33,238 nucleotides of DNA, from NCBI GenBank assembly GCA_018823045.1, contig JAHJIX010000022.1, positions 65,508 to 98,745 of the forward strand. Reading direction: 5' to 3'. The notes beneath the pieces are model-generated. The model worked only from the letters and a program-made list of their open reading frames with translations. It made no database searches and had not been told where the DNA came from. The stretch's first letter is position 1, and each line of letters opens with the position of its first letter. The DNA comes from Patescibacteria group bacterium. GTDB lineage: Bacteria; Patescibacteriota; Patescibacteriia; Magasanikbacterales; UBA922. Position numbers and translations under genes: made by a program. Shown here in pieces: positions 10,286 to 28,514 of this stretch.

Positions 10286-10366
10286 ATTTAAGCTATTTTT
10301 TTATATAATTATATCAATATCATACGATATTTTACGCTATTTGTCTACCGCATAGGGGTCTCCCAC

Positions 10367-10395
10367 TTGACAAAATGCTCCAAATGATTTATGCT
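10367..10395 (+). promoter_or_regulatory. Strong sigma-70 promoter of the structured transcript
   Basis: TTGACA (10367-10372), 17-nt spacer, TATGCT (10390-10395). It shares ACTTGACAAAATGCTC exactly with the promoter at 6659. Confidence 0.75.
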
Positions 10396-10531
10396 GTTTT
10401 ATCTTAAATAGTTCTTTATACAAAAAAAAGTTTATCAGAGGAAATAATCGCTTAAAGAATACACTTAAGCTACTATTCCCCCTGGTAAACAATAACGGTA
10501 TAGATATAATCTTTCAGGGGGCTAGTAGATT

Positions 10532-10657
10532 ATGTCTATGGGAGTCAAAGAATGGGCAAACATTCAGACAACCAAAAAAGAGGGTGGAGAAAGCCTCCCC
10601 CTCCGAAAACCCCATTCGAAGAGTGGGTTTTCGGAGGGGGGCAGCCGAAGGGGATAA
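10532..10657 (+). CDS. Possible 41-aa small ORF inside the structured transcript
   Basis: ATG at 10532 to TAA at 10655-10657, beginning MSMGVKEWANIQTTKKEGGE. A purine-rich CAGGGGG lies 11 nt before the start and could act as a Shine-Dalgarno, though it also pairs in a helix. The peptide is polar, basic at the end, with no cysteines or membrane segment. The ORF reads through the 16-bp stem and stops in the loop of the alternative stem, so translation would change which fold forms. No homologue recognised; it may be only a chance ORF in an RNA gene. Confidence 0.35.
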   Translation: MSMGVKEWANIQTTKKEGGESLPLRKPHSKSGFSEGGSRRG

Positions 10658-10721
10658 CCACCCCAACGGCCCCCCCCTCATCCTCTCGCCGCTAACAGAT
10701 AATCACTGTTAGCGGCAACAA

Positions 10722-10759
10722 AACCCAGGCACTCTGTGAGCGCCTGGGTTCTTTTTTTT
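10722..10759 (+). terminator. Rho-independent terminator of the structured transcript
   Basis: AACCCAGGC/GCCTGGGTT hairpin (10722-10730 with 10742-10750) followed by CTTTTTTTT. Confidence 0.9.
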
Positions 10760-10775
10760 ATATAAACAAATTTTC

Positions 10776-14913: not shown

Positions 14914-15257
14914 TCGACGGTAGCTCAGTGGTAGAGCAATTGGCTGTCAACAGTGGCAGCTCTTAGTAGGAATACTAAGATGAAAAACAAGGTGAACTGC
15001 AGGAAGCCCAACCTGAGCAATCAGAACGGGTAATCTGCAGCCAAGCTGGATCTATTTTTAATAGATCCAGAAGGTTCAGAGACTATCCCTAACGGGAGTA
15101 GGGTTCAAACATATATTTGAATTCGAAGCGCCTTGCACCCCAAATGCTCTTGATTAAATCAAGTTTTTAGCATGGGTGATGATATAGTCCACGCTTTCTA
15201 GTAATAGGGAGGTAACGTGTAACCAATGGGTCGCCGGTTCGAGCCCGGCCCGTCGAG
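14914..15257 (+). tRNA. tRNA-Asn(GUU) interrupted by a group I intron
   Basis: Exon 1 (14914-14947) plus exon 2 (15220-15257) give a 72-nt tRNA. The acceptor stem is TCGACGG/CCGTCGA. The D-arm is GCTC-AGTGGTA-GAGC. The anticodon stem ATTGG/CCAAT encloses the loop CTGTTAA with anticodon GTT. The variable region is GGGTC, the T-arm GCCGG-TTCGAGC-CCGGC, and the discriminator is G73. CCA is not fully encoded. The splice sites were chosen because exon 1 then ends in U paired to G in P1, the intron ends in G, and the joined loop matches canonical tRNA-Asn. The intron lies between anticodon positions 35 and 36. Reading the DNA without splicing shows GTC, which would be miscalled as Asp. An alternative splice giving UGU (Thr) fits P1 less well. 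Confidence 0.9.
14948..15219 (+). ncRNA. ORF-less group I self-splicing intron (IA-like)
   Basis: 272 nt. P1: exon GGCTGT with the internal guide GCAGCT (14956-14961), ending in the conserved U-G pair. P2: TCTTAGTA/TACTAAGA (14961-14968, 14973-14980) with a GGAA loop. P3: CAAGGTG (14988-14994) with CGCCTTG (15129-15135). P4: CTGCAG (14997-15002) with CTGCAG (15035-15040). P5: CCC/GGG, capped by CTGA-GCAA-TCAG. P6: an 11-bp hairpin (15046-15070). The R element GTTCAGAGACTA and S element GATATAGTCC form P7 (15081-15086 with 15184-15189). P8: CACCC/GGGTG with a nested hairpin. P9: 15194-15211 with a GTAA loop. The terminal omega-G is at 15219. Two extra hairpins between P7 and P3 (CCCT/AGGG and TTCAAA/TTTGAA, 15087-15121) resemble P7.1/P7.2 of subgroup IA. 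No homing endonuclease is encoded. Confidence 0.93.
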
Positions 15258-25630: not shown

Positions 25631-26959
25631 TTATTTCAAAAATAACACATCTCTCACCTTTTTTCTATCATCATGTGGAATAATTTTACCCTTGACTACC
25701 ATCCCTTGTTCAGAACCTTTACCCGTAATAAGAATAATATCACCTTTTTTTGCCAAAGAAACCGCTTGAGCAATCGCTTCTCCACGGTCAAGAATTTTCC
25801 ACAGATCTTGTCCTTCTTTCTTCCCCACCTTGATAGCAGCACTCGAAACATCTTCGATAATTTTCATTGGATCATCATCATAGGGGTCTTCGTCTGTCAC
25901 AATAGCAATATCTGCATGCTTACCAACAAATTCACCCACAGAAAACCTACGAGAAATATCTCTTCCTCCTCCAGTTCCACCAAAAACATGAATAACACGT
26001 TTTGGCTCCAGAAGCTCTACAACATCATAGAGTGCTTTAATAGCAATAGGTTCGAAAGCATAGTCAACAATTACCTCAAAACCTTTTTCCTTTGCTTCGG
26101 GAATAAATTCTAATCGCCCCGGTACGGAATGAAGACTTTTGAATGCTTTTTTTATTTTTTCTTTTGGAATATCGAGCGCCTGAAGAACTGCATAAACCGC
26201 CATGAGATTCATCACGGTAAATTCTCCATAGAGCGGTGCTTCAAATATATCTTCATCCACAGAAAAATTTAACCCTTTTTTGGCTACTTGAACTTTATCA
26301 GCAATAAGAAGTTCTAAATTGTCAGTTTTTTTAACATGACCATCTCTATCACCACGAAAAAACACATACTTTTCATCAAAATCTTTATCGAGAAATTCAT
26401 TAGCATATTCATTATTTCCATTTACTATAGCCACTTTTTTATCAAAAGCTTTTTTCTTTTTGCATGTACTTACATATTCAAAGATCCCGAGCTTTGCTGC
26501 TTTATAATTTTCAAAACTTCCGTGTGATTCTATATGCTCAGGATAAAGATTTGTAAGCATCATTATATCATAATTGATAAACGCATGACGATATTGTAAA
26601 AATCCTTCTGAAGTGGTCTCAACGATTGCAATCTCACATTTTGCCTCTACCATCTTGCGAAGATACTGCTGAATTTGTGCAAGTCCAAGCATCGTCATCT
26701 TCTGATCATTCATTTTTTGCTCTCCAGCGACATAAAAGTCTACGGTAGAAAGTGATCCTACCCGAAGACCACAAGCCTCAAGTGACTGACGAAGATAGTC
26801 CGTAATACTTGACTTCCCGCTTGTTCCGGTGATTCCAATAACAATAAGTTCTTCAGATGGAAAACCATATTTTTTTGCTCCTAAATATGCAAAAAAGAAA
26901 TGCCGAGCATTCAATATCTTTTTTGGTACTATTTTTTTAATTATTTGCTTTACATTCAT
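25631..26959 (-). CDS. Mur ligase family protein (MurE-like)
   Basis: 442 aa. The ATP-binding P-loop GTSGKSS is at about residues 45-51. The central ligase domain shows ETTSEGF and MMLTNLYPEHIESHGSFENYKAAK, the MurE-type T-N-L-x-x-E-H motif. The C-terminal domain (~300-442) has the family PGRLE, VDYAFEP and FGGTGGGRD-ISRR segments. It lacks the ~90-residue N-terminal UDP-binding domain of canonical MurE; its first 40 residues are a short basic helix. It should add an amino acid to a UDP-MurNAc precursor or a related acceptor; the acidic/basic substrate specificity is not readable. Monocistronic, start context AATTATG. Confidence 0.88.
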   Translation of the reverse strand: MNVKQIIKKIVPKKILNARHFFFAYLGAKKYGFPSEELIVIGITGTSGKSSITDYLRQSLEACGLRVGSLSTVDFYVAGEQKMNDQKMTMLGLAQIQQYLRKMVEAKCEIAIVETTSEGFLQYRHAFINYDIMMLTNLYPEHIESHGSFENYKAAKLGIFEYVSTCKKKKAFDKKVAIVNGNNEYANEFLDKDFDEKYVFFRGDRDGHVKKTDNLELLIADKVQVAKKGLNFSVDEDIFEAPLYGEFTVMNLMAVYAVLQALDIPKEKIKKAFKSLHSVPGRLEFIPEAKEKGFEVIVDYAFEPIAIKALYDVVELLEPKRVIHVFGGTGGGRDISRRFSVGEFVGKHADIAIVTDEDPYDDDPMKIIEDVSSAAIKVGKKEGQDLWKILDRGEAIAQAVSLAKKGDIILITGKGSEQGMVVKGKIIPHDDRKKVRDVLFLK

Positions 26960-27044: not shown

Positions 27045-27073
27045 TTGTGTTTTTTCTCTTATTACTGTATACT
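27045..27073 (+). promoter_or_regulatory. Promoter of the first microprotein gene
   Basis: TTGTGT (27045-27050), 17-nt spacer, TATACT (27068-27073); the start site would be ~20 nt before the Shine-Dalgarno. Confidence 0.68.
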
Positions 27074-27102
27074 TGTGCTAATTCAAAAATAAGGAGGGCT
27101 GC

Positions 27103-27312
27103 ATGACCGCCAACCCAACCACCTTTAACTGGATCACCCAATTCCTCCAACAAGGAAAACCCGGGTACTATTATCCAGTAAGTCCTTTCTCACCACCACT
27201 TCGATGCGGTTGCCGCATCCACCTGAGCCCACAACAAACGGGCTTTCTTAAACACACCCCGGAGGGAACACTTATTCACACTCATTGTGGTAAGAGAGTT
27301 GATAATCATTGA
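27103..27312 (+). CDS. 69-aa microprotein with zinc-ribbon-like Cys/His motif
   Basis: 69 aa, MTANPTTFNWITQFLQQ at the start. A consensus Shine-Dalgarno AAGGAGGG lies 4 nt before the ATG, unusual for this window where nearly all other genes lack one. The second half has RCGC and, 21 residues later, HTHCGK, giving C-x-C and H-x-H-C as possible metal ligands. It shares the (L)RCGC...H-x-x-CG pattern with the ORF at 27615. It has its own promoter and terminator. No family recognised. Confidence 0.75.
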   Translation: MTANPTTFNWITQFLQQGKPGYYYPVSPFSPPLRCGCRIHLSPQQTGFLKHTPEGTLIHTHCGKRVDNH

Positions 27313-27332
27313 TGATCATCAATGCCCTTTAA

Positions 27333-27362
27333 AGCGCACCCCACCAGGTGCGCTCATTTTTT
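27333..27362 (+). terminator. Terminator of the first microprotein gene
   Basis: AGCGCACC/GGTGCGCT hairpin (27333-27340, 27347-27354) followed by CATTTTTT. It is preceded by the 18-nt palindrome CATTGATGATCATCAATG (27307-27324), which overlaps the stop codon. Confidence 0.88.
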
Positions 27363-27416
27363 GATAAATTATTACATAATATATATAAAAAAACACAGAT
27401 AAATCAACACAAGTTC

Positions 27417-27444
27417 TTGACTTTTCAAATATGTTGTGTATACT
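27417..27444 (+). promoter_or_regulatory. Promoter of the second microprotein unit
   Basis: TTGACT (27417-27422), 16-nt spacer, TATACT (27439-27444). Confidence 0.7.
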
Positions 27445-27513
27445 AAAGACACAATCAACTACTTGGTAGAAAGGAATATTGTCTACAACACACCTAATAT
27501 CAACATTTAAACG

Positions 27514-27618
27514 TTGGTTAAAACGACTTCCTTCACAAAAACGAAACGGGCATTCTGCCCACACTGCAATCGTTGCTTAGATCGAGCAACAACAAACCCT
27601 AGAGGAAAAACCTTGTGA
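27514..27618 (+). CDS. Possible 34-aa CPHCNRC micro-ORF
   Basis: A frame from TTG 27514 to TGA 27616-27618 encodes a 34-residue peptide containing FCPHCNRCLDRATTNPRGKTL. It has the look of half a zinc ribbon and ends by a 4-nt GTGA overlap with the next ORF's GTG start, a typical translational-coupling junction. It has no Shine-Dalgarno of its own. A different frame with an AAGGA Shine-Dalgarno (TTG 27479 to TAG 27578-27580, MSTTHLISTFKRWLKRLPSQK...) overlaps it, so either a frameshift joins them or one is spurious. Confidence 0.35.
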   Translation: MVKTTSFTKTKRAFCPHCNRCLDRATTNPRGKTL

Positions 27619-27797
27619 AAAAGACACCTACTACTACGACTACTACAAACAACACAGTGCCACTGACCCACTATCCAAAGACATATCTGAGGTGTGGATG
27701 TGAAGCAACAAAAGGAGGGGCATTAATCATACAAGATGATGGTGCCCACTGCCCCCAGTGTGGAGAACTGATCTGTCGATCATCAAGAAAGAAGTAA
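27615..27797 (+). CDS. 60-aa microprotein with C-x-C / C-x2-C zinc-ribbon motif
   Basis: 60 aa from a GTG start preceded at 8 nt by AGAGGA. A Thr-rich N-terminus (MKKTPTTTTTTNNTV) is followed by LRCGCEATKGG and AHCPQCGELICRSSRKK. C-G-C plus C-P-Q-C is a compact four-Cys zinc-ribbon-like set. It is similar in pattern to the 69-aa ORF at 27103, so both may come from one small family. Probably cotranscribed with the micro-ORF upstream and ending at the terminator at 27888. Function unknown; small nucleic-acid-binding or rubredoxin-like roles are possible. Confidence 0.72.
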   Translation: MKKTPTTTTTTNNTVPLTHYPKTYLRCGCEATKGGALIIQDDGAHCPQCGELICRSSRKK

Positions 27798-27887
27798 ACA
27801 AACCGTAAAAAACCAAGGGGGGCCTCTACACCACTACTATCGTGGTATAGAACATATTCCTTAAGAACAACCCAAGGAGATCCCCCC

Positions 27888-27917
27888 GAAAACGCCCCCA
27901 AGCGTTTTCTTTTTTTT
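27888..27917 (+). terminator. Terminator of the second microprotein unit
   Basis: GAAAACGC/GCGTTTTC hairpin followed by TTTTTTTT. Upstream, GGGGGG (about 27820) and CCCCCC (about 27882) could close a larger folded 3' region containing CCAC/GTGG. Confidence 0.88.
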
Positions 27918-27926
27918 CTTTACTAT

Positions 27927-28514
27927 TTATGCAATACGATCACTTTGTCGCAAAGATAGTTCATATTGCACAATTTCTAATTTGTTTCTTGCTTGTTTTG
28001 CTTGATCAAACTTTACACGCAAATATTTGGTAAAATCAAACTCAATAAGTTCTCCAATAATCTCTTCTGCCCCTAATACGCATTTTTCTACCATTTCATA
28101 ATCTTTTTCTGATGCTGATCGAATAGCATAACGATACAACTCTCCTGGAACATCACAAAGTCCAGCAAGATATACTTCACTTTCTACCGAAAAACTTATG
28201 ACCTTTCCAATTTTTCCTGTCTTAATAAATTGATAAAATAAACTGGCTTCCACGTATTCTTCTACCGCGGCTTTATATGATCCCTCTTCAAATACCTTTT
28301 TATTCCTTGAATATTTTTTGTATATATTTTTTAAGATTTTTTCTGCTTTTGATATTTTTTCTTTTGCTTCATTGAGATCACCCCGATGCATATCAAAAAT
28401 TGCCCGTTTTGAGATATGAAGTGCATCTCCACAGTTTTTGATAAGTTCAAGACGAATTTCTGCAAATTCATGTAAATCTTTTTGAATTTTTTTGATATAT
28501 TGAGTATTGAGCAT
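27927..28514 (-). CDS. Translin-like all-helical protein
   Basis: 195 aa, entirely helical. The N-terminal half (EIRLELIKNCGDALHISKRAIFDMHRGDLNEAKEKISKAEKIL) and the later phrase VYLAGLCDVPGELYRYAIRSASEKDYEMV match the translin superfamily pattern (E-R-E-x-x-x-L-R-x-I-H-R, then G-L-x-D-x-x-G-E-L-x-R). Translins of eukaryotes and their archaeal/bacterial relatives bind single-stranded RNA/DNA and some are RNases (TRAX). The catalytic Glu/Asp residues of TRAX cannot be confidently assigned here. The start context is ACTATG. No operon partner is seen; a 63-nt gap separates it from the unknown gene upstream. Confidence 0.72.
   Translation of the reverse strand: MLNTQYIKKIQKDLHEFAEIRLELIKNCGDALHISKRAIFDMHRGDLNEAKEKISKAEKILKNIYKKYSRNKKVFEEGSYKAAVEEYVEASLFYQFIKTGKIGKVISFSVESEVYLAGLCDVPGELYRYAIRSASEKDYEMVEKCVLGAEEIIGELIEFDFTKYLRVKFDQAKQARNKLEIVQYELSLRQSDRIA

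Follow-up and report, generated by a model that had tools for sequence, protein, structure and literature searches.

Between two minus-strand genes, for a Mur ligase and a translin-family protein, the plus strand of a Patescibacteria contig holds two compact units, unit 1 at 27045-27361 and unit 2 at 27417-27912. The first codes for a Cys/His-rich protein of only 69 amino acids, the second for one of 60. All positions refer to the window, i.e., the whole 33,238-nucleotide stretch of DNA that was analysed; the genome is a reduced one of 1.16 Mb (1,161,138 bases as rebuilt from its stretches). The first-pass annotation, made from the letters alone, had placed ORFs of 69, 34 and 60 amino acids in two plus-strand units, and the ORF list bore out both the strands and the lengths. 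The locus comprises the following features:

25631-26959, minus strand: Mur ligase gene (Pfam PF08245/PF02875), which borders the gap and adjoins the translin-like gene in most relatives
27045-27073, plus strand: weak unit-1 promoter, TTGTGT-17-TATACT (8/12, found by eye, under the scan threshold)
27091-27098, plus strand: Shine-Dalgarno (SD) site AAGGAGGG of the 69-aa gene, 4 nt before the ATG
27103-27312, plus strand: 69-aa ORF, with LRCGC...HTHCG after an N-terminal helix (predicted with low confidence)
27333-27361, plus strand: unit-1 intrinsic terminator, an 8 bp stem and a T run (27333-27354 in the terminator scan; z -3.9)
27417-27444, plus strand: unit-2 promoter, TTGACT-16-TATACT (10/12; passes the promoter scan)
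27514-27618, plus strand: possible 34-aa ORF with CPHCNRC (TTG start without SD; translation uncertain)
27601-27606, plus strand: SD-like AGAGGA of the 60-aa gene, 8 nt before the GTG
27615-27797, plus strand: 60-aa ORF with a GTG start, a Thr-rich N terminus and then LRCGC...HCPQCGELIC
27817-27887, plus strand: three-way junction in the 3' UTR, closed by GGGGGG/CCCCCC and preceding the terminator (z -2.6 for the 80-nt stretch, modest)
27888-27912, plus strand: unit-2 intrinsic terminator (27888-27909 in the terminator scan)
27927-28514, minus strand: translin-family gene (Pfam PF01997, E 1.7e-15), the other border of the variable gap

Each unit had been credited with its own promoter and terminator. 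Both terminators and the unit-2 promoter were confirmed, whereas the unit-1 promoter proved weak; five terminator-like sites were found by the terminator scan versus 0.9 expected. Integron cassettes were rejected as a model for the locus, since the units carry their own promoters. The 34-aa ORF is supported solely by its CPHCNRC motif and by the GTGA in which it overlaps the start of the 60-aa gene. The overlap of its stop codon with the GTG suggests that translation of the two may be coupled, the 34-aa ORF itself having a TTG start without SD.

Both longer proteins carry two knuckles at ribbon spacing, CGC and HTHC in the 69-aa protein, CGC and CPQC in the 60-aa protein. The first knuckle is of the non-classical CxC type in both, and the second, C/H-x-x-C-G, comes 19 or 24 residues after the Cys-Gly-Cys knuckle, in the C-terminal half. 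In shuffles that preserved dinucleotides, an ORF of at least 55 aa with C-x1-2-C...[CH]-x2-C arose in 0.4% of cases for unit 1 and 1.4% for unit 2, and two together in 0 of 2000, which places the knuckles beyond chance. The earlier description of the products as small Cys/His ribbon-like proteins is supported. Small ORFs as such are common, about two of at least 55 aa being expected by chance in the stretch according to the shuffles. Both this expectation and the lack of homologues would fit spurious ORFs, whether in intergenic sequence or in an insertion undergoing decay. Two adjacent units nonetheless each combine SD, promoter, terminator, composition and knuckle spacing, and we regard spurious ORFs as very unlikely.

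LRCGC is common to the two proteins, and BLASTP of one against the other aligned this motif alone (E = 0.015); the spaced C/H-xx-CG is common to them as well. The synonymous codon differs at five of the five LRCGC positions (CTTCGATGCGGTTGC versus CTGAGGTGTGGATGT), an indication that the likeness stems from the protein rather than from copied DNA. Single-sequence AlphaFold2 models were poor, with short strands only and a pLDDT of 60 for the 69-aa and 51 for the 60-aa protein. Judging from the sequence, the products of both genes are probably small zinc-binding proteins.

Almost all other genes had been described as lacking such SD sites, and the counts agree. An SD-like site precedes 1 of the 25 longer genes of the window and 56 of the 905 longer genes genome-wide, 29 of these sites being strong; the genome-wide count took ORFs of at least 120 aa with a simple start-codon rule, and its absolute numbers are approximate. 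Despite this rarity, the 3' end of the 16S rRNA keeps an intact anti-SD (GGATCACCTCC). Among the 19 ORFs with GC > 0.45, several of which look lipoprotein-like or radical-SAM-like, nine have an SD, versus 47 of the 886 others (Fisher p = 4e-7). SD thus goes with foreign-looking genes in this genome, and the genes that it marks appear to be GC-rich and were probably acquired.

The two genes also are more GC-rich than their host, as had been claimed, with 0.48 for the 69-aa ORF and 0.46 for the 60-aa ORF versus 0.36 (0.361) in host genes, the GC3 of which is 0.235. GC3 exceeded the expectation from host codon use in the 69-aa ORF (0.45 vs. 0.22, z 2.8), in the 60-aa ORF (0.38 vs. 0.21, z 2.2) and in the 34-aa ORF (0.41 vs. 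0.21), which means that amino acid content accounts for only part of the GC excess. The proposal of unusual expression signals, and of a composition that points to a different origin or expression class, is upheld. GC-rich composition alone was weakened as a marker, as amino acids give part of the excess and some comparison genes were chosen by GC.

Elsewhere in the genome, gene GC reaches up to 0.67 (genome 0.36) in GC-rich islands at G000:C9 about 26300-42100, G000:C15 65185-69303 and G000:C14 about 8530. These islands include SD-led genes for radical-SAM-like proteins and for lipoproteins with Asp-rich, calcium-binding-repeat-like sequence, as well as a 119-aa ORF with a GC3 of 0.88.

Protein searches with the 69- and 60-aa sequences found no homologue in 86 genomes of the order, in genome contigs, in viral contigs or in phages, and none was found in plasmids with the 60-aa protein. 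Pfam and NCBIfam gave no homologue and, even at weak E-values, no zinc-ribbon match, and PHROGs gave no convincing match, so that neither protein could be assigned to a curated zinc-ribbon family of these three collections. A sequence search of solved structures returned chance matches only, the defence library matched neither protein, and the whole 1.16 Mb genome held no sequence paralogue of either. A match of the translin-like protein to ZorB in the defence library was weak and not credible. On the DNA side, both units stayed below threshold in Rfam without matching a family, and unit 2 had only short chance matches in relatives. With no homologue in any of these collections, the suggestion of an undescribed sequence family was not borne out. 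The refutation proposed along with it paired a lack of homologues with conserved Cys and a dN/dS near 1; its first half applies, as the searches brought up none. What turned up instead were different Cys-knuckle mini-proteins that correspond by position in three relatives (G001, G013 and G019), and a few similar SD-led ribbons elsewhere in the genome.

The translin-like gene was found in 44 of the 46 family genomes, mostly beside the Mur ligase gene, and the distance between the two genes ranges from overlap to 1969 bases. The two window units are missing at this site in relatives, where the gap is absent or otherwise filled; the cases that follow were picked out post hoc, partly by GC. In G001, which belongs to the same genus, the gap encodes a 58-aa MQRCPKC...ICPRCNEKK protein on the strand opposite to the flanks, with a TTGACA promoter (read from sequence), a GGAGGG SD and a terminator; the protein has no clear homologue, and its match to TIGR04104 in NCBIfam is far below the cut-off. 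Also opposite to the flanks lie an 88-aa CPKC protein after GAGGGAGGG in G013 and a 98-aa LPCGC...CDRCG protein with a TTG start and AGAGGA in G019. These three proteins likewise lie above their own hosts in composition; the other mini-genes in this comparison were picked partly for GC and are not independent evidence. The gaps of G039 and G047 hold SD-led ORFs without Cys, again opposite to the flanks, and those of other relatives hold same-strand genes; DUF3800-like and PDDEXK-like genes are among the contents.

These positional cases bear on a further reading, in which one fast-evolving family would comprise the G001, G013 and G019 proteins as well as the two genes, the latter as diverged paralogues; its members would be true positional orthologues that have changed too far to be recognised. 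Shared gap, orientation, similar size, SD and knuckles would fit such a family, as would the CGC...CxxCG of the G019 protein. We nevertheless hold it to be distinctly unlikely, because there is no alignable similarity outside the knuckles, and the gaps of other family members hold DUF3800-like genes, PDDEXK-like genes and structured RNAs.

The structured RNAs come from G042, G043, G057 and G058. Each of these gaps carries a GC-rich RNA with a long closing stem formed from paired ends and a terminator, and the folds excluding the terminator have z values of -3.7, -6.8, -4.4 and -6.2, in that order. One stem pair differs between the G057 and G058 RNAs in a compensatory manner, and the G058 RNA was otherwise found in G057 only. 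At L166, L172, L167 and L175, structured RNAs of the gap run opposite to the translin-like gene; they measure about 180-270 nt, have long closing stems and match no Rfam family at the gathering score.

If the gap is a site of solo structured RNAs, the units of the window might themselves be non-coding or dual-function RNAs in which the ORFs are incidental. Besides the RNAs of the four relatives (z -3.7 to -6.8), z values of -2.6 and -2.7 for the window units without their terminators are in line with this reading, as is a GATGCGG/CCGCATC hairpin that spans the RCGCR codons of unit 1; the unit-1 ORF is slightly more structured than typical coding sequence (z -2.2 versus -0.4 +/- 1.0 in host coding stretches). 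Against it, the 60-aa ORF alone folds as an mRNA would (z -0.1 versus the same -0.4 +/- 1.0), both ORFs are led by SD sites of a kind missing from other genes, LRCGC is shared through different synonymous codons, two ribbon ORFs arose in none of the 2000 shuffles, and no Rfam family was matched. The window units are mRNA-like with mildly structured ends, unlike the strong folds of G043 and G058, and coding is therefore preferred; RNA is the main rival, although an unlikely one.

Two further stretches of the window drew attention as RNAs. The plus-strand sequence at 10392-10735, in a unit at 10286-10775, has a TTGACA-17-TATGCT promoter, a very strong fold (z = -10.5; MFE -161 for 10392-10775) and a terminator. 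It matched nothing in Rfam and had no substantial DNA match in the 46 family genomes; it is a strong candidate for an orphan non-coding RNA, and the small ORFs there are probably incidental. At 14938-15211, also on the plus strand, an intergenic stretch was assigned by Rfam to a Group I intron (87 bits).

A census of the genome yielded 35 SD-led intergenic ORFs of 30-119 aa versus 12-26 with a displaced SD, a modest excess. Ribbons made up 4 of these 35, as opposed to 5 of 156 (p = 0.06, not significant). The 35 include three further ribbon-like ORFs: C15:146874 (63 aa) and the pair C20:44973 (60 aa, CNNC...CQNNQC) and C20:45152 (65 aa, three knuckles), the two of which overlap in an ATGA, much as in unit 2. 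Their matches to Pfam zinc ribbons are weak. Adjoining SD-led ORFs of 83 aa on the minus strand at G000:C17:79520 and 79958 resemble paralogues of each other.

A wider proposal would divide the genome into two initiation classes, SD-less core genes and GC-rich, SD-led solo genes, many of the latter being tiny zinc-ribbon genes. The solo genes would make up a mobile, hitherto undescribed pool of mini-genes that turns over fast at preferred chromosomal sites; the translin-Mur gap would be one such site, receiving solo structured RNAs as well. We put this forward as speculative and rather improbable. Among the openly accessible papers searched, we found none that treats SD usage in Patescibacteria or mini-genes for zinc ribbons in these bacteria.

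Altogether, the explanation that we favour, with somewhat more confidence than doubt, is that the two units are solo genes of a moron-like kind, specific to this lineage and lodged at a variable site, and that they encode small zinc-ribbon proteins which probably serve as accessory binding factors. Two solitary units would have been inserted on the plus strand into the variable translin-Mur gap; solo units were likely either acquired at such a site or born there. Each would be transcribed from its own promoter into a short mRNA that stops at the unit's terminator and is translated from a canonical SD, which sets the units apart from most core genes of the host. The CGC and C/H-x-x-CG knuckles would most likely hold one zinc ion per protein, and the products, most likely recently acquired or fast-evolving, would be accessory factors whose binding partner is nucleic acid or protein. 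We observed the ORFs, SD sites, terminators and composition, the lack of homologues and the recurrence of other solo units in the gap; translation, zinc binding, acquisition and function of both units' products are what we infer here. New here are that unrelated solo units repeatedly occupy the gap and that SD sites go with foreign-looking genes.

Should they be real, these proteins of 60-70 residues are specific to their lineage, escape naming by homology-based annotation and are expressed through signals rarely used in the rest of the genome. In a host whose core genes mostly lack SD, the link between SD and foreign-looking genes could help to detect small proteins and acquired genes, also in other reduced genomes of this kind, and the variable gap gives a fixed point at which their gain of tiny genes and structured RNAs could be followed.

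Among known systems, the products resemble zinc-ribbon and double zinc-ribbon proteins (Zn_Ribbon_1, DZR, TIGR04104 cxxc_20_cxxc), which are likewise short and carry a pair of Cys/His knuckles at a distance of about 20 residues; the first knuckle is CxxC in those families and CxC in the 69- and 60-aa proteins. The RNAs of the TTGACA type in the gaps of G042, G043, G057 and G058 share with the units the site, the strand, GC-richness and a terminator of their own, but fold far more strongly and have no SD-led ribbon ORF. Phage morons are single accessory genes with their own promoter and terminator and a foreign composition. The units are like them in their solo layout, their own promoter and terminator (the unit-1 promoter being weak), their aberrant GC and their site between conserved genes. 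In contrast to morons, they are chromosomal, flanked by the Mur ligase and translin-like genes without adjoining phage genes; as no prophage surrounds them, each unit is better said to work like a moron than to be one.
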